IMG/VR virus record: IMGVR_UViG_3300025289_000134
Coordinates: 1 to 21,927 of that record
Reading direction: 5' to 3' (one strand)
From: a virus
DNA length: 21,927 nt
Shown here: in pieces, positions 3,070 through 14,951 of the stretch
Position numbering within the stretch: position 1 is the stretch's first letter
How the letters are laid out: every line of letters begins with the position of its first letter
Position numbers and translations under genes: made by a program
The notes under the pieces: generated by a model
Told to the model about the DNA's origin: nothing
Database searches by the model: none
Seen by the model: only the letters and a program-made list of their open reading frames with translations

Positions 3070-3110
3070 AAATCACCCACCCTCATATTGTCCCAATGAA
3101 AGGAACTGAA

Positions 3111-3947
3111 ATGAACGCAAAAGCTGTGACCCCCAAAAGTGTAAGCCCCACCTGCCGCATCTGTGGCAAGGAGTTGACCCTCCCTGAATCAATCCAAAAG
3201 GGAATTGGCCCAGAGTGCGAGGCTCGTTATTCGGGAGGAGTAGATCCTGAGGCTACCAAAGCTGCCCGCAGCGTGGAGGTTGTCCCAAAGGGCTATCTCC
3301 CTCTAGCCCAGGCTCTCGAGATTGTAAAGGAGGCTGGGATCCCCGCAGGGCGGTTCTGGCACAAGGCTTGCGGTGGCAATCGTGGCTTTGGGATCCCTAT
3401 CACGGATGACTTCAGGGCAGTCATCTTCAACAATAAATGGTTTGTGCCTCAGGCAGCGGTGAACAAAAAGAACCTCGAGCTGGTTCGCAACCTCGAGCGC
3501 ACCGTTGCCCCCAAGGCTCCTAAAGTGGCCAAGGCTCCTGCCAAGAAAACCCATGGCAAAGAGGCTCCTGCGAAAAAGGCTCCTGCCAATGATCGCCCAG
3601 TCGGCAAAGCCACCAAGGTTCCTGCCAAGGCTACCTCTAAGGCTCCTGCCAAAGTCGTTGCCCCCTCCAAACCAGCCTCTAAGGGGAAAGTTGCCCCTCA
3701 GGCAGCCGTAAAATCCAGCCCTAGCCAGTCGGGCTCCTCTAAGGGCTCGAAAACCCCTGCCCAGGCTACCAAAACCCCTCCTGCTGCGAAAAAGCCCACT
3801 AAAAAGGCTCCTAGCACAGTGGCTAGCCCCTCAGAAAAGCCTGAGACCGTGATCATCGGTGGGGTTCCTGTTTCTAAGGATGTCAGATCCAAAATCGCTG
3901 CTGGATTGAAAAAGATCCAGGCTGAAAAAGCTCCTGCTGAGGACTGA
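3111..3947 (+). CDS. Zinc-motif protein with histone H1-like Lys/Ala/Pro tail (278 aa)
   Basis: Three parts are visible. Residues 15-36 form a treble-clef-like Cys motif, Cys15-x2-Cys18 ... GIGP-x-Cys36, of the type seen in phage proteins of the DUF6011 kind. Residues about 61-118 are a globular segment (GYLPLAQAL ... NNKWFVP). Residues about 132-247 are low complexity, dominated by Lys, Ala, Pro, Ser and Thr with repeated KAPAK units, like the tail of eukaryotic H1 or bacterial H1-like proteins. A short globular end follows (247-273). AAAGGA sits six bases before the ATG at 3111; the in-frame ATG at 3096 has no ribosome binding site. Arginine codons are mostly CGN, as in the capsid gene and unlike most neighbours, which suggests high expression. 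I infer DNA binding, perhaps compaction or packaging; no homologue with a known function is recalled. Confidence 0.75.
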   Translation: MNAKAVTPKSVSPTCRICGKELTLPESIQKGIGPECEARYSGGVDPEATKAARSVEVVPKGYLPLAQALEIVKEAGIPAGRFWHKACGGNRGFGIPITDDFRAVIFNNKWFVPQAAVNKKNLELVRNLERTVAPKAPKVAKAPAKKTHGKEAPAKKAPANDRPVGKATKVPAKATSKAPAKVVAPSKPASKGKVAPQAAVKSSPSQSGSSKGSKTPAQATKTPPAAKKPTKKAPSTVASPSEKPETVIIGGVPVSKDVRSKIAAGLKKIQAEKAPAED

Positions 3948-3971
3948 GAAAACCCCTGCGAGAAGTATAAT
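3944..3971 (+). promoter_or_regulatory. Candidate promoter before the packaging genes
   Basis: A perfect -10 hexamer TATAAT (3966-3971) is preceded by CTGAGA (3944-3949, four of six to -35) with a 16-base spacer. The predicted start lies inside the hairpin at 3972-4002, so transcripts from here would begin with part of that structure. It could drive the head genes, but the weak -35 keeps confidence low. Confidence 0.35.
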
Positions 3972-4002
3972 AAAGTCAGCCCTCGAGAGGGGGCTGACTT
4001 TT
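3972..4002 (+). terminator. Hairpin terminator between H1-like gene and packaging module
   Basis: AAAGTCAGCCC (3972-3982) pairs perfectly with GGGCTGACTTT (3991-4001) around an eight-base loop and ends in a short T-run (3999-4002). On the opposite strand the stem is followed by TTTATTAT, so it could work in both directions. It separates the small-gene region from the structural genes. Confidence 0.7.
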
Positions 4003-4024
4003 CGCTTGGAAAGGAAAAAGCATC

Positions 4025-4429: not shown

Positions 4430-5745
4430 GCAATTTTGAGGTTGTAACCCGCAGCAATAAGATCCTCCCGAATATTCTAGAGGCTCCTCCCGAGAGCAAG
4501 CCCTATGAACCATTTGGGGCTTCTCGGGAGGTGTTCAGGTTGCACGATCCCGAGTTCATCATCGATGGCCCAGCAGGCACTGGCAAGTCTAGGGGTTGCC
4601 TCGAGAAGCTGTACATCTGCGGGCTAAAATACCCTGGCATGCGAGGGCTTATGGTCAGGAAAACGAGGGAGAGCCTGACGCAATCTGGCATGGTGACTTT
4701 TGAGAAACACGTGGTGCCCTCTAATGGCACGGTTCGCTGGAGAACCCAAGAGCAGCATTATGAGTTCAGCAACGGCTCTGTCCTTGTCGTAGGGGGTTTG
4801 GACAAGAGCTCTAAGATTATGTCCACGGATTATGATATTATCTATGTTCAAGAGGCTACAGAGGCTACACAGGAGGACTGGGAGGATCTAACAACTCGGG
4901 CTAGGAATGGCGTCATGCCTTACAACCAGGTATTTGGAGATTGCAACCCTGGGCCAAGCTCCCACTGGATCCTGAACAGGAGAGATCAGGGCACTTTGAA
5001 ATTATTGCAGAGTAGGCATGAGGATAACCCCATCCTATTCGATCACAAGACAAATACTTGGACAGCTCGAGGGCTAGCCTATTTGGCAAAGCTAGATAAC
5101 CTCTCTGGGGTTCGTTATAAAAGGCTCAGACTGGGGATGTGGGTCAGTGCTGAAGGGCTCGTGTATGATGAATACGATCCAGCCATCCATCTAGTAGATA
5201 GGTTCAAAATACCTCCCGAGTGGAGGAGGTTCATTGCAGTCGATTTTGGGTACACCAATCCGTTTGTAGCTCAATGGTGGGCTATCTCCCCTGATGACAA
5301 CATGTACAGGTATAGGGAGATCTATATGACCCGCAGGACAGTCAAAGTTCATGCTGAAAAGATCCTCAAGCTAACTGGGGAGGAGCAAATAGAGGCTTGG
5401 GTTTGTGACTGGGATGCTGAGGATCGTGCTACCCTAGAGGAGAATGGAATTGGGCCAACCATCCCTGCTGAAAAGGCAGTTACTGTAGGGATCCAAGCTG
5501 TAAAGGATCGATTGAAGGCTAGATCCCTTTTCCTTATGCGGGATAGCCTAGTTGAGACAGATCATGATCTTGTTGAAAATTATAGCCCTGTAAATACTGA
5601 GGGTGAATTTGAGACGTATGTTTGGAGCGATAAAAACAAAAAAGAGATCCCTGTCAAAAAAGATGACCATGGGATGGATCCTACTAGATATGCGACAATG
5701 TATGCCAATAGCTATGATAGGAAACATGGAGGTATATACGTATGA
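4426..5745 (+). CDS. terL: Terminase large subunit (DNA-packaging ATPase/nuclease)
   Basis: The protein pumps phage DNA into the empty head and cuts it. The ATPase part has Walker A GPAGTGKS at residues 48-55 and a Walker B-like strand IIYVQEA at 138-144, where Glu143 would be the catalytic glutamate; the usual preceding Asp is Gln. The RNase H-like nuclease part shows Asp273 in FIAVDFGYTNPF, acidic residues Asp328/Asp330 in CDWDAED, and Asp414/Asp418 in DDHGMDP, matching the three-acid metal site of large terminases. At 439 residues it is complete and of normal length. It overlaps the upstream gene and the portal gene (ATGA at 5742), so all three are translationally coupled. The C-terminus ends just after the nuclease domain. 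Confidence 0.95.
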   Translation: MSNFEVVTRSNKILPNILEAPPESKPYEPFGASREVFRLHDPEFIIDGPAGTGKSRGCLEKLYICGLKYPGMRGLMVRKTRESLTQSGMVTFEKHVVPSNGTVRWRTQEQHYEFSNGSVLVVGGLDKSSKIMSTDYDIIYVQEATEATQEDWEDLTTRARNGVMPYNQVFGDCNPGPSSHWILNRRDQGTLKLLQSRHEDNPILFDHKTNTWTARGLAYLAKLDNLSGVRYKRLRLGMWVSAEGLVYDEYDPAIHLVDRFKIPPEWRRFIAVDFGYTNPFVAQWWAISPDDNMYRYREIYMTRRTVKVHAEKILKLTGEEQIEAWVCDWDAEDRATLEENGIGPTIPAEKAVTVGIQAVKDRLKARSLFLMRDSLVETDHDLVENYSPVNTEGEFETYVWSDKNKKEIPVKKDDHGMDPTRYATMYANSYDRKHGGIYV

Positions 5746-7295
5746 GCAAGCTGAATTTCATCCAACGAGCTGCAATTCAGATAGCTGGCCTCAAGACTAT
5801 GGTCACTCTAGTTGAGACTTGGAAAGAGGGGAGGCCAATCTATGCTGACGTCAATTTTGAGAGCCTGGTTCGTCAGGCGTGGCGCAAGAATGAACTGATC
5901 TTTGCCTGTATCTCGGCAAAGGCTAGTACAGCCAGTCAGGTTCGTTTGAAGCCCTACAATACCTCTAAGGAGGAGATGATCAGGGATAGGAACCATCCTC
6001 TTGCGAGGCTCCTCAAAAAGCCTAACCCCTTTATGAGTGAGTATGACTTCTGGTCATCGATCATCATTTATCAGGAGCTAGCTGGCAGGGCTATATTCGA
6101 GAAGCAAAGGGATAACGCTGGCAACGTTATAGCCCTATGGCCACTGCGCCCAGATTGGGTCAATCCTATCCCGAGTTCAACTCAGATGATCGCAGCCTAT
6201 CAGTACACGGTTCCTGGGCTGCCCCCTGTATTCTTGGATAGGGGAGATGTGCTTGATTTCAAGCTATTCGATCCTTTGAACCTTTTCCACACGTGGCCTC
6301 CAGTCGCTGTAGCTGCTAGGATCGTGGAGATCGATAATACCTCCACCGATTACATCAAAACCTTTTTCCAAGAGGGAGGAGCTCCCCCAGGTATTATCAA
6401 AACCACTCAGAGGCTCCGTGATGCTGAGGCAGAAGAGATCAGGCGCAAGTGGGCAGATCGATATGGAGGGGCTAGGAACTGGAGCGCACCAGCGGTTCTG
6501 GATCGTGACGCTGAGTATCAAAAGACAGGATCCACTTTTGAGGAAATGGGGTTCTCAACTCTTGACTCGAGGAATGAGGCTAGGATCTGTGCTACAATGC
6601 GAGTGCCTCCTATTATCGTAGGGGCAAAAGTGGGGCTAGATCGATCCACCTTTGCTAACTATAAGGAGGCTAGACTGGCTTGGTGGGAGGATACCCTGGT
6701 GCCCATCTACCAGAACTTCAATGACGTCATCGACAACCAGCTGATACCTGAATTTGGTGACTCCAACTTAGAGGGGCACTGGGATTTCAGTGAGGTTCCA
6801 GCCCTGCGGGAGGAGAGGCTCATTGTCTGGGAAAAAGCTAACAACGGTTTGAGAATGGGTGGTATCACGGTCAATGAATATCGAAAAGAGATTGGCCTTG
6901 CCGCAGTTAGATCTGGAGATGTTTTCTTGCGGATGCTCAACCTTATGGAAGTGCCTTTGGAGCACACACCTGGGGAGGGAGGAGCTCAACAAGCTGTAAA
7001 GCCAGAGCCTGTTGAAAAGCCAGTGGAGGAGGAGGGTGACAAAGATCCTGATGAAGCCAATGAAAACTCAACGCAAGAAGATGAAAATCAAGTGGTTGAA
7101 AAAGCACTACGATCAGGAGAAAAATCAGGCAACCCCATCGACAAAGAAACAAGGGAGAAGCTAGAGCGAATGCTCCAGAGGGATCTCGAGTCATTTTTCA
7201 AATACCAGCTAAAGGGAGCCATGGATCAGATCCAGCGACATCCAGACGTACAAGCTGCCCTAAAGGAGAGGGAGAATGGCAAAGAAAAAGCCTGA
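5742..7295 (+). CDS. Portal protein, HK97 family
   Basis: The portal forms the twelve-subunit ring at one head vertex through which DNA passes, and it docks the terminase and connector. Family features are visible: VNFESLVRQAWRKNELIFACI near the start, the NPFMSEYDFW segment, RPDWV, GDVLDFKLFDPLN, GAPPGIIKT, and the RMGGITVNEYRKEIGL segment near residue 380. The last about 90 residues are highly charged and low in complexity (Glu/Lys/Asp/Asn), ending in a helix-rich tail, a common feature of portals. GGAGGT precedes the ATG, which overlaps the terL stop. The 3' end overlaps the next gene by 20 bases. Its 517 residues are within the usual range. Confidence 0.93.
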   Translation: MSKLNFIQRAAIQIAGLKTMVTLVETWKEGRPIYADVNFESLVRQAWRKNELIFACISAKASTASQVRLKPYNTSKEEMIRDRNHPLARLLKKPNPFMSEYDFWSSIIIYQELAGRAIFEKQRDNAGNVIALWPLRPDWVNPIPSSTQMIAAYQYTVPGLPPVFLDRGDVLDFKLFDPLNLFHTWPPVAVAARIVEIDNTSTDYIKTFFQEGGAPPGIIKTTQRLRDAEAEEIRRKWADRYGGARNWSAPAVLDRDAEYQKTGSTFEEMGFSTLDSRNEARICATMRVPPIIVGAKVGLDRSTFANYKEARLAWWEDTLVPIYQNFNDVIDNQLIPEFGDSNLEGHWDFSEVPALREERLIVWEKANNGLRMGGITVNEYRKEIGLAAVRSGDVFLRMLNLMEVPLEHTPGEGGAQQAVKPEPVEKPVEEEGDKDPDEANENSTQEDENQVVEKALRSGEKSGNPIDKETREKLERMLQRDLESFFKYQLKGAMDQIQRHPDVQAALKERENGKEKA

Positions 7296-8781
7296 GGAGA
7301 AAAGGGAGCTTGTAGAGTTCCAGCCCTTTGAGGCATCCTATCTAGACATCTTCACTGAGAAGCTCTGGGAGGTTGTTTTCCCTCAGGAGATGGCAGCAGC
7401 ATTCCAAGGGGAGATTGAGGCTCAATCGGCTCTGGATCTCCTCTATAAGCCATCCCCAGCTGTAGTCACTGGAGGGCTATCATTCGATCTACTCCACCAG
7501 TTTGCCATGGGCTATGCTGAACATCAAGCTGGAACTCTTATAAAAGGCATAACTGATGACCTGGTAAAATATGTTCAAAGTGAGACATCGCAGTGGATCC
7601 AGTCTGGGGATCCCCTCCAAGCTCTAGAGGATAGGCTAGCCCTAAAATTCAGCCCTGAGAGAGCAGAGCTCATAGCCTCCACAGAGGTTACAAAAGCCTA
7701 TGCTGAGGGCAATCTCCTTATATGGAGGAATGAAGCCTATGCAGGATCGATAAAAGGCAGACGCTGGATGACTGCAGTCGATGAACTCGTTTGCGATATT
7801 TGCGGGCCACGAGATCAGCAAATGGTGGGAGGGCTAGATGGAGGCTGGGAGGATTTTGATGATCAGCCGATAGATGGCCCACCTGCCCATCCGAGATGTC
7901 GATGCTATCTCCTCCCTGTCGTGCCAGGATCCTCTATGCGCACTACTTCAGTGCCCCCAGATCCTATCAATCCCTCTGACCCATGGCCTCCTAAAATGGA
8001 TAGGGCTACAAAAAATCCTAGGACAGTGCCCAGTGATATCATCAGGCAAGGTAGGGAGTTCATAAAAAGAGGAGATGATGTTGAAAGCTATTCTGCTCGA
8101 GGGGCATCTAAAGATAAGCTCATCCAAGAGCTCTCCTCCAGAACCAAAGTCAGTTATACTGCTCTAAATGATTTTGTTCATCAATGGGCAAATACTTCAA
8201 ACGATAATGCCTATGCATCCCTCCAGATCCAAGCTCGAACAGCAAAGGTTTTGGGGACAAAGCTATCCCCATGGCAAGAACAGAGGATGGCAGATGAACT
8301 GATCATCAGGTCTAGGGGAGGGAAAATACCCAGACAAAGCCTTAGCATTTTTGAAAAATCAGATATGACCCTATGGGATGAGTTCCTTGTACTAGGGTAT
8401 CAGAACTCTGATGAAGTAGTGGATGACGTCATAAAGGCAATGTACCAATATACGCAGGAGGAGCTAAAGGCTGCAGGCATAACCCAAGTTCACGTTTGGA
8501 GAGGGGTCAGTGTAGATCCTACCCTACATTCAGCGATTGCTAACAGCCCAAATAAAATGATGCTGGGCATAGATGAAGTTGCCAATGCAGCTGAGAGCTG
8601 GACTGTAGAGGCTTCTATTGCTGAGAGGTTCGCTGGGTACAACGGTGTGGTGATGGAGGCCATAATGCCTGCCAATAGGGTTATTGGAACTGCCAGGACT
8701 GGATTTGGCTGTTTGAATGAATGGGAGTTTGTTATCAGTGGTGGAACAGTCGATGATCTTATAACTGCCACGGTGAGATAG
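7276..8781 (+). CDS. Minor head protein (Mu F/SPP1 gp7 type) fused to ADP-ribosyltransferase domain
   Basis: The N-terminal half is the phage head-morphogenesis domain: STEVTKAYAEGN near residue 136, then a Cys/His cluster Cys173-x2-Cys176 ... His205-x2-Cys208-x-Cys210. This family sits inside the head near the portal and is packaged with the DNA. After a proline-rich linker (about 220-255) comes a region (about 270-395) unlike standard Mu F proteins. The C-terminal 100 residues carry the R-S-E signature of ADP-ribosyltransferases: Arg409 in VWRG, Ser441-Trp-Thr443 followed by an A-x2-FA helix, and Glu482-Trp-Glu484 (ExE) before a final strand. The ExE form is typical of arginine-modifying enzymes. 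The target is unknown; injection with DNA and modification of a host protein, as with T4 Alt, is an inference. GAGGGAG precedes the ATG. Confidence 0.88.
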   Translation: MAKKKPEEKRELVEFQPFEASYLDIFTEKLWEVVFPQEMAAAFQGEIEAQSALDLLYKPSPAVVTGGLSFDLLHQFAMGYAEHQAGTLIKGITDDLVKYVQSETSQWIQSGDPLQALEDRLALKFSPERAELIASTEVTKAYAEGNLLIWRNEAYAGSIKGRRWMTAVDELVCDICGPRDQQMVGGLDGGWEDFDDQPIDGPPAHPRCRCYLLPVVPGSSMRTTSVPPDPINPSDPWPPKMDRATKNPRTVPSDIIRQGREFIKRGDDVESYSARGASKDKLIQELSSRTKVSYTALNDFVHQWANTSNDNAYASLQIQARTAKVLGTKLSPWQEQRMADELIIRSRGGKIPRQSLSIFEKSDMTLWDEFLVLGYQNSDEVVDDVIKAMYQYTQEELKAAGITQVHVWRGVSVDPTLHSAIANSPNKMMLGIDEVANAAESWTVEASIAERFAGYNGVVMEAIMPANRVIGTARTGFGCLNEWEFVISGGTVDDLITATVR

Positions 8782-8789
8782 GAGGAGCT

Positions 8790-8969
8790 ATGAAAGCAAA
8801 AATTGTAGATGGCAAATTGATCGTGGAGGAGCTCTCCACTAGTGATGAAGATGCTGACTGGCTGAAAATGATCCCAGGAGCTAGGGAGGGGGAGGATCGT
8901 GCTCATCGGGAGGCTTTGAAGCTCGAGAGGGCTAGACAGAAAAAGGCTAGAAAAGGGAAAATGAAATGA
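8790..8969 (+). CDS. Small charged protein (59 aa)
   Basis: A strong ribosome binding site, GGAGGAG (8781-8787), precedes the ATG at 8790, and the stop overlaps the next start (ATGA at 8966). The first half is acidic (EELSTSDEDADW). The last twenty residues are strongly basic and helical (KLERARQKKARKGKMK). Placed between the minor head protein and the gp10-like gene, it could be a small internal head or scaffold-like protein, but this is not shown by sequence. Its function is unrecognised. Confidence 0.7.
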   Translation: MKAKIVDGKLIVEELSTSDEDADWLKMIPGAREGEDRAHREALKLERARQKKARKGKMK

Positions 8970-9555: not shown

Positions 9556-10668
9556 ATGGAGTACAAAGTTACACCTAACCAGCCAGAGATCCTAGATGAG
9601 AGATCGGTCAAAGGTATTGCAGCTGTATTCGGCAATATCGATAGTGGCAATGACCGCATCCATATAGGAGCCTTCAAGAAGACATTGAAGGAAAATCAGA
9701 GACGACTGAAACACCTATGGCAGCACGATTATTTTGCCCCTCCAACGGCTGTCATCACTAACATTGAGGAGGTTCGCAAGGAGGGGCTCCCCAAGGATAT
9801 TACAGAAGCTATCCCTGAAGTCACTGGGGGGCTTATGGTCACTCGCAAATACCTCGAGACACCTAGAGGGGATGAGATCCTCGAGGGTATCAAAAAGGGA
9901 GCGATCACTGAAATGTCTTTTGCATTCGATCCAGTGAAGTTCTCCTATGTGGAGGATAAGACAACTGGGGTTATGGTTCGTGAACTGAATGAATTACGGC
10001 TCTGGGAAACATCCGATGTAATTTGGGGGATGAATGCCCTCACCTTGGCATCCTCTAAGGCTCTCCATAGTGCAGTTCCTTATAAGGATACTGGAATTGC
10101 ATCAGAGGGATCCTCTTGGTCATCCCCCTCCCTAGATGACTTCACTGATGCTGACTGGGGAGATCTTACTGATCAAGAAAAGAAAAGAATTGCTGCCCAC
10201 TTTGCCTATGCTGAGCAGATGCCCCCCGAGAGCTTTGGGGATTTGAAGCTCCCGCATCATCAAGCTTCTAAGTCAGGCATTGGGCCAGCTATCTGGGCAG
10301 GTACAAAATCTGCCATGGGAGCTCTGATGGGGGCTACTAAAGGAGGGCTAGGGATCCCCTCTGATGCTAGGAGATCTGTGTATGATCATCTAGCCTCGCA
10401 TTACAAACAGTTTGAAAAAGAAGCTCCCGAGTATAAGGCAGTGGATCTAATAGCTGCAGCCACGATATTCGATGTCCTCTCCTATAAGGAGGGGAGGGTT
10501 TTGTCCAGTAGGAACCTCGAGAAGCTAAAAGGAGCCCTACAGGTATTGTCAGATATTTTGCTGAGTGCTGAGCCAGCCGATGACGATGAAAAATCGTTAT
10601 CACTACTCACCGAGCAATTGAACAAAAGAATTGCGATCATGGAACGTGATCCAGTTCACCTATTCTAA
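9556..10668 (+). CDS. Prohead protease (HK97 type) with C-terminal extension
   Basis: The protease cleaves capsid and scaffold segments during head maturation. The first about 190 residues match the HK97 protease family: SVKGIAAVFGNIDSGNDRI near the start, a likely catalytic His57 in WQHD, Ser121 in ITEMSFAFDP, and an ELRLWETSDV strand. HK97 proteases are often about 200-230 residues; here the protein reaches 370. Residues about 225-300 form a separate module with LPHH near 240, a GATKGGLGIP loop and a YDHLASHYKQF helix. From memory, similar modules recur in phage proteases and capsid-related proteins with no assigned function. GAGGTG lies five bases before the ATG. The major capsid gene follows after 21 bases. 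Confidence 0.88.
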   Translation: MEYKVTPNQPEILDERSVKGIAAVFGNIDSGNDRIHIGAFKKTLKENQRRLKHLWQHDYFAPPTAVITNIEEVRKEGLPKDITEAIPEVTGGLMVTRKYLETPRGDEILEGIKKGAITEMSFAFDPVKFSYVEDKTTGVMVRELNELRLWETSDVIWGMNALTLASSKALHSAVPYKDTGIASEGSSWSSPSLDDFTDADWGDLTDQEKKRIAAHFAYAEQMPPESFGDLKLPHHQASKSGIGPAIWAGTKSAMGALMGATKGGLGIPSDARRSVYDHLASHYKQFEKEAPEYKAVDLIAAATIFDVLSYKEGRVLSSRNLEKLKGALQVLSDILLSAEPADDDEKSLSLLTEQLNKRIAIMERDPVHLF

Positions 10669-10689: not shown

Positions 10690-12060
10690 ATGGACGCAAA
10701 AGTGAAAGAGCTCAAGCAATCCTATGCAAGCAAGATTGCTGAAGCAAAAACGATTATGGCGTCTGCAACGGCTCAGGCTCCCCTAACTCAGGAGCTCAGT
10801 GAAAAGGTGGATAAACTTCTAGGAGAAGCCGATGTGATCAAAGTTCAGATCAGTCAGGCTGAAAAAATCTCCGATGGAGAAGCCTATTCAGGAGATCCCG
10901 CAGACACCAAAGCTGCCCATCTTGGGTGGCGTCAATCTGGGCCAAACGAGGGTATGCCTGCTGCGGATCCTCTCGCATGGCGCAAGGTTGATGTTGATCT
11001 CCCTACAGGGAGAAAAGTTCAGGTTCGTTTTCTCGTGCCCTTGGCGGTTCAGTCGAAAGGCTACCCAGGAGCCTTTGAAGGCTATATGCGCAAAGGCATG
11101 GAGCAGCTTGGCCCACTTGACCGCAAGACGATCACTGAGGGCATCGATAGCTCTGGGGGCTTCTTTGTCCCAGAGGACTATCAGACAGAGCTCATTCGCA
11201 AAACTGCCACCAGTGCAATGGTCAGAGCTCTAGCCCGAGTTATGTCCACCAGCCGTGATGCGATGAAGTGGCCTCGCATTGTTTACACGACTGATGACAA
11301 ATATACCTCAGGCGTGCGCTTGACCTGGACTGGAGAGGTGCCCTCGAGCTCCACTGTCCATCGGGTAACTGAGCCAGTCTCAGGTCTGATCACCATCCCT
11401 GTCCATACGGCTATGGCATCGATGCCTCTGAGCAACGATGTCCTAGAGGACAGTGCCTTTGACCTGATGGGGATCTCCTCAGATCTCTTGGGTGAAGCCT
11501 TTGCCCTAGGGGAGGATGATGTCTTCATCAATGGAAATGGCGTTGCCAAACCGATGGGTCTGGTCACCCGCATCGATGTAGGAGAAACTGGGGAGAAAAT
11601 CCCCACCGTTGTCTCGGGCTCCGCTACAACCCTCTTGGCCGATGGGTTGATCGATCTGTTCTTTGGGCTCCCCTCTCAATACCGCAGAAATGCACGGATG
11701 CTCCTGAACTCAGGCACAGCGAAAGTTGCCCGCAAGCTGAAAGATGGCAACTCTCGTTATATCTGGGACAGCATGCAGAATGCATCGAATGGAGGGCTCT
11801 CCTCCCCAGGTGATCAGGACAGCATGCTTGGCAAGCCTGTAGTGTACGATGAATTTATGCCTGACATCGCTGGGAATGACTACCCCATCCTCTTTGGTGA
11901 CTTCTCGGGCTACTTCATCGTGGATCGCATCGGGCTCTCCCTGCAGAGATTGTCAGAGATCTATGCTGAGACCAATATCACCGTTATTCTTGGGCGCAAG
12001 CGTGTCGGTGGTGAGGTTGCTCAGCCGTGGCGGTTCAGAGCTCAAAAGATCTCCACCTAG
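10690..12060 (+). CDS. Major capsid protein, HK97 fold
   Basis: This protein builds the icosahedral shell. Residues about 1-60 are a helical, charged segment like the delta (scaffold) domain removed by the protease. The family core starts near residue 155 with SSGGFFVPEDYQTELIRK. It continues with ALARVMSTS, the EDSAFDLMG and AFALGEDDVFING segments, then RRNARMLLNS, KPVVYDEFMPDI, FGDFSGYFIVDR and a final strand near RVGGEVAQPW. A perfect AAGGAGGT ribosome binding site (10679-10686) precedes the ATG. Arginine is coded mostly by CGC or CGT, unlike the AGG/AGA preference of the neighbours, as expected for the most highly expressed gene. A long hairpin follows the gene. Confidence 0.95.
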   Translation: MDAKVKELKQSYASKIAEAKTIMASATAQAPLTQELSEKVDKLLGEADVIKVQISQAEKISDGEAYSGDPADTKAAHLGWRQSGPNEGMPAADPLAWRKVDVDLPTGRKVQVRFLVPLAVQSKGYPGAFEGYMRKGMEQLGPLDRKTITEGIDSSGGFFVPEDYQTELIRKTATSAMVRALARVMSTSRDAMKWPRIVYTTDDKYTSGVRLTWTGEVPSSSTVHRVTEPVSGLITIPVHTAMASMPLSNDVLEDSAFDLMGISSDLLGEAFALGEDDVFINGNGVAKPMGLVTRIDVGETGEKIPTVVSGSATTLLADGLIDLFFGLPSQYRRNARMLLNSGTAKVARKLKDGNSRYIWDSMQNASNGGLSSPGDQDSMLGKPVVYDEFMPDIAGNDYPILFGDFSGYFIVDRIGLSLQRLSEIYAETNITVILGRKRVGGEVAQPWRFRAQKIST

Positions 12061-13301: not shown

Positions 13302-14951
13302 GTGACTGTAGCGTATCAAGCTGTAAGCCATGCCACAGGAACTGATGCCACTGGGGAGGGCTCATTCCCTGCAGGAGTGGCTAATGGGGATCTCCTCCTA
13401 GCCTTTGTCATTCATAACTCCACCTCAGCTACTATAACCAATGTACCAACTGGCTGGTCACTGGTTGAGGCAGATCCTAACCCAGCTGATTTTGCAACCT
13501 GGGTCTATAAAAAGAACTATGCCACTGGTGATTCGGCCCCCACGTGGACTTTTTCAGCTGCAGGTAACTGGGTTATTGATATTACTAGAGTAGATGGACA
13601 TGATTCATCAGACTCAACCCCAAATAGCTCTGGCCATGCTAATGCTTCATCTAATGCTATCAATGTAGGAAACATAACCCCTGGCTATACTAATATGCTA
13701 ATGATATGTCATGCCTCTGTTGATGCATCAGGAGGAGCTAGGACATGGACAGAAGATGCAAGTCTGACAGAGGTAACTGAGCAAACAGATAACCAGCTTC
13801 ATCGTGTGATTGCATGGGAGCTCCTAACTGGAACCTCATCAGTGAACAGAACTCTCACAGTCAGCGGTTCTGCTCAGGATATGGCTGGCTTCATGATCTT
13901 AGTCAAGCCAGCCCCTTCAGGAACCCAGTTCAACCAATCAGTATCAGGAGCTATAACCCCTGCGGGAGCTCTAGCCAAGAGGGCTGGCAAGATCCTAGCT
14001 GGAGGGCTATCGTTTGTAGGAGCTCTAGTCAAGAGGATCGAAAGGAGCTTAACAGGAGCCCTTTCATTCTCGGGAGCCCTTGTAAAAAGGAGCTCTAAGA
14101 GCTTTACAGCCACCCTAACCAGTGTTGGAACTCTCATAGGCTCTAAGGTATCCCTAAAATCCCTAGATGGCTCCCTGTCATTCCTAGGGGCACTAGGGAG
14201 GCTCCCTAACAAGAACCTAGCTGGATCCCTCTCCTCTAGCTCAACCCTACTGAAGCAAACTTCTAAAAATCTTGTTGGTGGGCTATCTTTTTCAGGTTTG
14301 CTGAGTTCCATTAGGCTGGTGGTAAAGATCCTGACAGGAGCCCTTTCATTCTCTGGATCGATCTCCCAGCAATCAGGGAAAGCTCTAGCTGGGATCCTCT
14401 CCTTTACAGGAGCCCTGAGCAAACGAACCTACAAGAGCTTTACAGGAACCCTGTCATTTTCTGGGATCGTGACTTCAGTCAGGGCAGTTCTAAAATCTTT
14501 GGTGGGAGCCCTTTCATTCACTGGATCCCTAACCTCCCAAAAGCTAGTCACCAAGATCTTGACAGGAGCTCTATCATTCACTGGAGATCTAGCCAAACGA
14601 ACCTCCAAGAGCTTTACAGGGGCTCTATCCTTCTCAGGGGCTCTAGCCTCTATTCGATCTATCCTGAAATCCTTGGGAGGCTCTGTTTCGTTTTCTGGAT
14701 CTCTGGATAGGCAGACTTCAAAGCTCCTAGAGGGAGGGCTATCATTTGTTGGGGGGCTCTCCAAAAGGATAGGCAAGATCCTAGCTGGGGCACTGAGCTT
14801 CATAGGGGATCTTACAAAGTTCCTGCCAGGTGGTGCTAGAATTGCTGAAATCAGGTTTGATTTTTCTAGCAGATCTGTGTCTGCCACCTCTATAACGAGA
14901 GCCCAGCAGTATAATTTTAGGGAGAGATCTACAACCTTTGTAGAGAGCTAA
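13302..14951 (+). CDS. Repeat-bearing virion protein (549 aa, sixteen 18/20-residue repeats)
   Basis: The gene starts at GTG after AAGGAGC. Residues 1-205 form a beta-rich domain (GDLLLAFVIHNS, VPTGWSLVE, TWTFSAAGNWVIDITRVDG), of a kind found on phage surface and tail proteins. Residues 210-507 are sixteen tandem units of 18 or 20 residues with consensus K-x-L-x-G-x-L-S-F-x-G-x-L followed by a basic turn (often KR). The last 42 residues are a separate basic, Ser/Arg-rich end. Alternating hydrophobic and small residues suggest stacked beta strands, as in a solenoid or fibre, with lysines and arginines at the turns. It lies between capsid-associated and connector genes. A head fibre or decorating adhesin is the most likely role; this is inference. 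Confidence 0.75.
   Translation: MTVAYQAVSHATGTDATGEGSFPAGVANGDLLLAFVIHNSTSATITNVPTGWSLVEADPNPADFATWVYKKNYATGDSAPTWTFSAAGNWVIDITRVDGHDSSDSTPNSSGHANASSNAINVGNITPGYTNMLMICHASVDASGGARTWTEDASLTEVTEQTDNQLHRVIAWELLTGTSSVNRTLTVSGSAQDMAGFMILVKPAPSGTQFNQSVSGAITPAGALAKRAGKILAGGLSFVGALVKRIERSLTGALSFSGALVKRSSKSFTATLTSVGTLIGSKVSLKSLDGSLSFLGALGRLPNKNLAGSLSSSSTLLKQTSKNLVGGLSFSGLLSSIRLVVKILTGALSFSGSISQQSGKALAGILSFTGALSKRTYKSFTGTLSFSGIVTSVRAVLKSLVGALSFTGSLTSQKLVTKILTGALSFTGDLAKRTSKSFTGALSFSGALASIRSILKSLGGSVSFSGSLDRQTSKLLEGGLSFVGGLSKRIGKILAGALSFIGDLTKFLPGGARIAEIRFDFSSRSVSATSITRAQQYNFRERSTTFVES
13929..14822 (+). repeat. Sixteen tandem coding repeats of 54 or 60 bases
   Basis: Unit lengths in order are 18,18,18,20,18,18,20,18,18,20,20,18,20,18,18,18 residues. 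The 20-residue units carry two extra residues after the basic turn (for example TSVRA, ASIRS) and tend to begin with SF or NL after the lysine, which hints at higher-order duplication of two- and three-unit blocks. DNA words such as AAGAGCTTTACAG recur in several units, so the expansion is recent enough to be visible at the base level. Confidence 0.85.

Follow-up and report, generated by a model that had tools for sequence, protein, structure and literature searches.

Can a phage head protein carry an enzyme into the next host and, if so, what restrains that enzyme in the cell where the particle is built? The question is posed by a stretch of viral DNA of 21,927 nucleotides (positions 1-21,927 of IMG/VR record IMGVR_UViG_3300025289_000134), referred to here as the window, and specifically by one of its genes (7276..8781, + strand), whose 501-residue product joins a MuF-type head domain to a predicted ADP-ribosyltransferase (ART) module. 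A reading of the sequence alone, the original prediction, had proposed this fusion; the open reading frame (ORF) lies where it was placed, and C173, C176, H205, C208, C210, R409, S441, T443, E482 and E484, the residues it singled out, all sit at the numbers it gave them. Here we describe the divergent family to which the module belongs and a small gene that is linked to the ART across that family. As the best explanation, and one we consider probable, we propose a head-delivered mono-ADP-ribosyltransferase of the R-S-E class with a dedicated antagonist as its partner.

Relatives of the C-terminal module

Relatives found by tblastn lie in Bacillus phage SP-15 and in plasmids of Rhodococcus and Euzebya, with weak matches to Streptomyces plasmids (E 0.06 and 0.3), and a six-row alignment of them led to 44 viral loci. 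A weak match to a Microbacterium phage near residues 260-309 (E 0.3) was dropped. From the 44 loci we removed four copies of the window, SP-15's own contig and five presumed near copies, the last judged by equal frame lengths or matching coordinates rather than by computed identity, which left a family of 35 rows: the window and 34 others, at 20-33% identity to the window's ART domain. Across this divergent set, W304, Q319, Y390, Q394, R409, G410, F452, G476, G478 and E484 are invariant, position 443 is always Thr or Ser, E482 is Glu in 34 of 35 rows and S441 is Ser in 33. The R-S-ExE signature that had been read from a single protein is thus conserved throughout the family and is not a chance pattern, because R409 and E484 never vary and E482 and S441 scarcely do. 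Conservation, modeling and profile comparison together place it in a catalytic core of residues 396-501 (8461..8778, +), with R409 on beta-1, S441-x-T443 on beta-2 and E482-x-E484 at beta-5.

The same residues bear on whether the module is a transferase at all. If it were an NAD+ glycohydrolase, or an ART fold that is inactive or structural, the near-complete retention of R409, E484, E482 and S441 would be hard to explain; moreover, a glutamate at 482 besides that at 484 is typical of arginine transferases. ART activity is a prediction here, and NAD(P) glycohydrolases do occur among ART folds, as an excerpt of PMC13285283 describes, yet we regard this alternative as improbable.

Judged by profile matches, the nearest sequence family of the module is DRAT (DraT; PF07357), which matches 12 of the 35 ART domains at E <= 0.05 (best 2.7e-7) and, in searches of whole records, 11 of 35 at E <= 0.01, four of them above the cut-off; at the locus L023 the match covers the counterparts of R409 and E484. 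Five other listed Pfam families match one member each. It is the relatives alone that DRAT recognizes: the window protein has no DRAT match at E <= 10. A profile-profile comparison with two ADPrib_exo_Tox domains (from L045 and L053) gave E 2.9e-5 and a probability of 74%, aligning the RG, the S-x-S/T stretch and the E-x-E, against E 0.48 for an unrelated capsid protein used as control. The profile match to an ART family that the original prediction called for is therefore present for the family set and absent for the window protein taken singly. The 35-row profile had no match in a sequence search of the PDB; no NCBIfam ART profile matches the whole window protein or its C-terminal 246 residues; and on the 35 ART domains NCBIfam and PHROGs gave scattered matches, no model matching more than one. 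None of the libraries searched has a dedicated entry for the family, which, on these sequence comparisons, seems new. Such enzymes easily go unannotated, as each NCBIfam or PHROGs model reaches at most one of 35 members and DRAT in Pfam just touches the family.

How widely the family occurs can be given as a lower bound. Two single-protein queries against 50,697 phage records returned SP-15 as the sole clear match (in two records) with five further weak, partial ones, and a pattern scan of the genomes of 84,980 species, which depends on one 9-residue stretch, returned one relative; both counts are at-least figures. The ART-family profile, A3, matched two of 296 actinomycete genomes, one being the genome that had prompted the search. 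DRAT was absent from 396 actinomycete genomes, where controls were equally silent, such that this shows little. The family tree is poorly resolved (support at 6 of 32 inner branches). It does not show the MuF-fused members to be one clade (seven changes, with a mean of 8.1 after shuffling and 93 of 500 shuffles as low), nor does it prove that the MuF-ART fusion arose repeatedly.

Predicted structure of the module

Residues 256-501 were modeled with a mean predicted local distance difference test score (pLDDT) of 84.2 and a predicted template modeling score of 0.83. In this model beta-1 spans 404-412 and carries R409, beta-2 spans 435-443 and carries S441, and beta-5 begins at 484; this order on the strands would fit a shared NAD+ pocket for R409, S441 and E484. 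The ART fold proposed originally is supported by the lists of structural matches, in which entries were called ART-fold by title, or for a few on general knowledge. In the Foldseek list such entries fill 29 of 50 rows, and 19 of the first 20. Re-alignment of the Foldseek-ranked entries with VIA-align raised this to 48 of 50 listed rows for the domain model, the other two being CNFy. The best of those listed are the Rhs toxins TreTu/TreX (Z 7.1, root-mean-square deviation (rmsd) 2.5, 82 residues), and KptA/Tpt1, binary-toxin ARTs and mammalian ARTs appear as well. Chance alone can produce Z values this high; what carries weight is the uniformity of the match lists. Of the viral models, the SP-15 protein SP15_258 matches best (E 4e-13); the next is a protein labeled 'phage head morphogenesis' (E 1e-12).

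The full-length model revises one element of the original prediction, which had begun the ART near residue 390 and left residues 270-395 outside both parts of the protein. Here 46 of 50 listed rows are ART-fold, and many alignments span approximately residues 250-501; iota toxin Ia aligns with Z 6.5 and rmsd 4.4 over 161 residues, and CDTa, VIP2 and C3 align too. Because the alignments with ART folds begin near residue 250, residues 270-395 most likely form, as modeled, the helical front of a C3/VIP2-like ART module. We accordingly assign residues 250-395 (8023..8460, +), which include the invariant W304, Q319, Y390 and Q394, to this predicted front.

A small gene linked to the predicted transferase

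Eight bases past the stop codon of the ART gene begins a gene for a 59-residue protein (8790..8969, +) bearing the motif D-A-D-W-L-K; AGGAGG precedes its ATG, and its stop codon overlaps the next ATG. The original prediction had overlooked this gene. A motif of the form (N/D/E/S)-x-D-W-x-(K/R/H) recurs in the gene following the ART at many loci of the family; a frequent version is N-A-D-W-x-K with W-D-L-P after it. The pattern was composed after inspection of the 35 loci, and the first count is accordingly not blind: in 312,033 residues of ORFs, taken from both strands of the 35 loci, the strict motif matched 26 times, and all 26 matches lie either just past an ART gene or, within the same gene, past the ART itself (that of L030 behind a second ART). 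Counting closed ORFs, 20 of 25 matches fall within 300 bases behind the ART gene, a zone comprising 1.5% of the sequence (binomial 2.5e-32). Two loci lie outside the strict pattern, L031 with HADWIA and L029 with a motif gene that adjoins the ART gene on the opposite strand. In total, 28 of the 35 loci have a partner beside or fused to the ART.

Profiles point to the window's gene when it is left out of their construction. One built from 12 short-type partner stretches at 10 loci, picked by eye, ranks 8757-8966 first among 464 fragments (E 2.3e-7), with E 0.86 for the runner-up; a mixed partner profile puts the window copy at the top of 357 ORFs (E 0.0056), although L039 reached only 0.38 in the same test.

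The linkage was also followed beyond the first set. A new scan yielded 49 loci, 38 of them on unused contigs, which formed 24 clusters at >0.9 similarity, held out by contig rather than by likeness to the first 35 loci; at least two fragments seemingly repeat other clusters (L118 with L104, L136 with L097). In 17 of the 24, the strict motif follows an ART gene or domain within 300 bases. L096 and L097 have it further upstream, in L107 a profile match lies 348 bases behind the ART, and L123, L132, L136 and L137 have no partner motif in that interval. Motif matches remote from the ART were seen in five clusters (L096, L097, L104, L107 and L136), and L103 holds two ARTs, each with its own partner behind it. 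The reciprocal search, with partner queries, gave 28 viral loci on 26 contigs (six on contigs already used, several alike), and in 27 of these the 4-kb flanks include the ART, in the same orientation. The exception is L087, where the partner gene (3800-4009) stands between two large open frames and no ART was detected in the locus.

Outside the viral contigs, the partner of L041 matched SP-15 alone among the 50,697 phage records at E <= 1e-5, and in SP-15 it lies upstream of the ART. The L053 partner found no match in plasmids, nor did the window partner in the phage records. By motif alone, a Euzebya plasmid has NADWLR near the end of the gene after its ART; Rhodococcus plasmids have an overlapping short gene that resembles, by eye only, the later W-D-V part. 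For comparison, profile A3 found no ART of the window's family in the stretches examined from phages DLP4 and V45iii and from the T4 alt region. One stray motif match lies in the T4 alt region; scattered matches to the partner profile (E <= 1) number one or two in each of the three. The ART family and its partner are linked genes.

Head-gene context of the fusion

The N-terminal part of the 501-residue protein is, as originally claimed, a head domain of the Mu F/SPP1 gp7 type. Pfam PF04233 (Phage_Mu_F) matches residues 100-212 (7573..7911, +) at E 8.3e-10 and 39.8 bits, against a cut-off of 29.6, and the domain includes C173, C176, H205, C208 and C210. The NCBIfam model phageSPP1_gp7 (TIGR01641) scores 34.1 on residues 108-216, under its cut-off of 39.65, and many PHROGs head families match the N-terminal half, in agreement with Pfam. 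The proline-rich linker that had been noted corresponds to residues 217-250 (7924..8025, +), which are modeled at pLDDT below 50; the full-length model averages 62.9 and is poor outside the ART module. The protein thus has the layout of a MuF polymorphic toxin, a MuF domain followed by a C-terminal toxin-type domain.

The window is a tailed-phage block of head and tail genes. Pfam named a terminase, portal, MuF gene, prohead protease, major capsid and tape measure among seven window proteins scanned, and the order of the first five is terminase, portal, MuF, protease, capsid. The portal gene (5742..7295, +; Phage_portal, E 5.4e-62) lies directly upstream of the MuF-ART gene and overlaps it by 20 bases; further on are the genes for the prohead protease (9556..10668, +; Peptidase_S78, E 4.1e-15) and the major capsid protein (10690..12060, +; Phage_capsid, E 2.6e-51). 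Two other frames stand out by eye: an ORF of 549 residues (13302-14951) with many copies of a unit of about 30 residues of the type LTGALSFSGALxKR, resembling a repetitive tail or decoration protein, and one of 283 residues (3096-3947) with a long histone-H1-like tail rich in Lys, Ala and Pro. The antisense ORF at 8490-8906 is taken as a chance frame.

The window is contained at full-length identity in a viral contig of 40,784 bases (40,000 bases compared), and pieces fetched from three more viral contigs are identical to it. The MuF-ART protein, known here from metagenome contigs, is 100% identical in four viral contigs, one of which carries residues 1-476 only.

These records speak to another account of the pair, as a toxin-antitoxin or anti-competitor module of phages and plasmids that was captured behind MuF and works in the lysogen or the producing cell instead of after injection. 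ART copies on plasmids would fit such a module, and Jamet et al. link MuF toxins with temperate phages, in the portion of PMC5576092 drawn on here. Conversely, the ART is built into a head protein, and no tyrosine integrase (PF00589) was found in the 40.8-kb record that holds the window, which is possibly incomplete; one was found in just one of 22 records searched, serine integrases lying outside the search. We consider this account unlikely.

The company kept by ARTs elsewhere in the family often involves the head. By Pfam (E <= 0.01), nine of the 35 ART proteins, the window's included, are fused to MuF, and L048 has an ART fused to a portal domain; at the same threshold, a MuF domain occurs in 21 of the 35 records and a portal domain in 16. 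Individual architectures vary. For instance, L028 (3-5540, record G311) combines MuF, NUDIX and ART in one open frame, and G311 also has a 2505-residue frame with a MuF match and a portal match slightly under the cut-off. A single protein of L035 (1845-5408) contains MuF, a zeta toxin and the ART, and four family ARTs stand in tandem in L043. The family ART is also part of a NUDIX protein in Streptomyces/Verrucosispora plasmids, among them L009 (2159-5515), where QxE replaces ExE; further plasmids are alike by annotation. The SP-15 protein SP15_258 (L006, 4245-5651) has ahead of its ART an N-terminal stretch with no Pfam match.

A proposed mechanism and its competitor

Together with the portal, the N-terminal MuF domain would bring the C-terminal ART into the phage head, and upon infection the ART would be released alongside the DNA. 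Delivery of this kind is inferred because of the MuF domain, its portal, protease and capsid neighbors, and the literature discussed below. The enzyme would then move ADP-ribose from NAD+ onto a host protein, probably at arginine, in favor of the phage. In the particle-building cell, the 59-residue partner may bind the ART module and silence it.

Reading the DW-motif protein as a binding antagonist draws on analogy with the neighbors of the MuF-ART toxin Bxa, and we lean toward it appreciably. The foremost competitor accepts head delivery of the ART and makes the DW-motif protein a loading or maturation factor, which binds the ART, helps to position it within the head or is cut away by the prohead protease. 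Loading or maturation control is favored because L032, L033, L050 and L051 carry the motif in cis, behind the ART in one protein, and because it heads larger downstream proteins of 346-858 residues in L019, L021, L022, L027 and L042; a prohead protease gene also lies near the MuF-ART gene in the window. The antagonist is nonetheless favored, because the linkage holds in SP-15, where the motif is away from recognizable head genes within the 10.5 kb viewed, and in the Euzebya plasmid, where it again lies behind the ART; the short Rhodococcus gene is a possible further plasmid case, by eye. The loading factor strikes us as a minority prospect.

Several observations weigh against a head-delivered ART with a dedicated antagonist. 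Neither the window protein nor its C-terminal 243 residues have a match among Pfam ART profiles. Foldseek gives no PDB match at E <= 0.001, the best being cholera toxin A1 at 0.11, and non-ART entries take up 21 of the 50 rows it lists; the highest Z for the modeled domain, 7.1, lies where chance arrangements occur. Seven of the 35 loci are without a partner (L015, L016, L043, L046, L025, L026 and L052); in the last three the ART frame runs off the contig, and L015 and L016 are near relatives. The cis fusions are awkward for a simple inhibitor if it is not cleaved off or relieved. The partner profile misses both the Euzebya gene and the Rhodococcus neighbor, and no ADP-ribosyl hydrolase was found in the 36 records searched. 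We give roughly an even chance to the broader proposition of a previously undescribed two-gene weapon of phages and plasmids, with an ART of a poorly catalogued family often lodged in head or portal proteins and held by an N-A-D-W-x-K plug, separate or in cis, until the next cell.

Head-packaged ARTs other than T4 Alt have often been predicted and seldom tested. The linked partner provides a sequence handle for finding such ARTs and allows a direct test of whether phages must carry an antagonist to build particles loaded with active enzyme. The window carries a complete ART and partner pair, and SP-15, a named Bacillus phage with both genes, makes the question testable.

Comparison with known systems

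MuF-ART fusions have been published before, in PMC9503650, PMC5576092, PMC11699363 and PMC7302621, each cited here from part of its text. Among the open papers searched, such fusions were found and the partner was unmentioned, the motif itself not having been a search term. The parts cited locate MuF proteins at the portal, inside the head (PMC5576092), and argue that MuF-fused head ARTs are injected (PMC9503650). The same excerpt of PMC9503650 presents T4 Alt as an ART carried in the head and injected with the DNA. By sequence, however, T4 Alt compares with the window's family at hhalign E 0.65, not above an unrelated control at 0.48.

Microbacterium phages such as Percival and Goodman resemble the window in having a MuF-ART fusion predicted in the virion, and differ in that the ART is of the VIP2 type, by description rather than by sequence comparison; Goodman's cluster is described as lytic (all from portions of PMC7302621). 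In Stenotrophomonas phage DLP4 a gene annotated as a minor head protein contains an ADPrib_exo_Tox-type ART and is followed by a small gene, and Variovorax phage V45iii has an ART of the same type with a MuF-like match upstream on the same strand. Both are missed by profile A3, and the small gene behind lacks the DW motif. Those small genes (L089 5449-5721 and L090 5437-5736) are alike and are perhaps the partner of that ART type. Both genes recur in Bacillus phage SP-15 (SP15_257/SP15_258), with an ART of the same family (E 1e-6) and the partner; it differs in having no MuF by Pfam and in the partner's upstream position.

Bxa, which goes with BAH and Bsi in a Bacteroides stercoris prophage, is the closest tested parallel: a MuF protein with a C-terminal ART in the head region, with small genes beside it. 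The sections of PMC11699363 relied upon describe ADP-ribosylation of arginines by Bxa, killing of E. coli and neutralization by adjacent genes, one through binding, and its authors report a small ORF behind every MuF toxin they saw. At the window locus no ADP-ribosyl hydrolase was found, and the partner is distinguished by N-A-D-W-x-K, a separation drawn from these features rather than from sequence comparison. The MuF-ART fusion as such is known; the ART family and its linked partner seem new.

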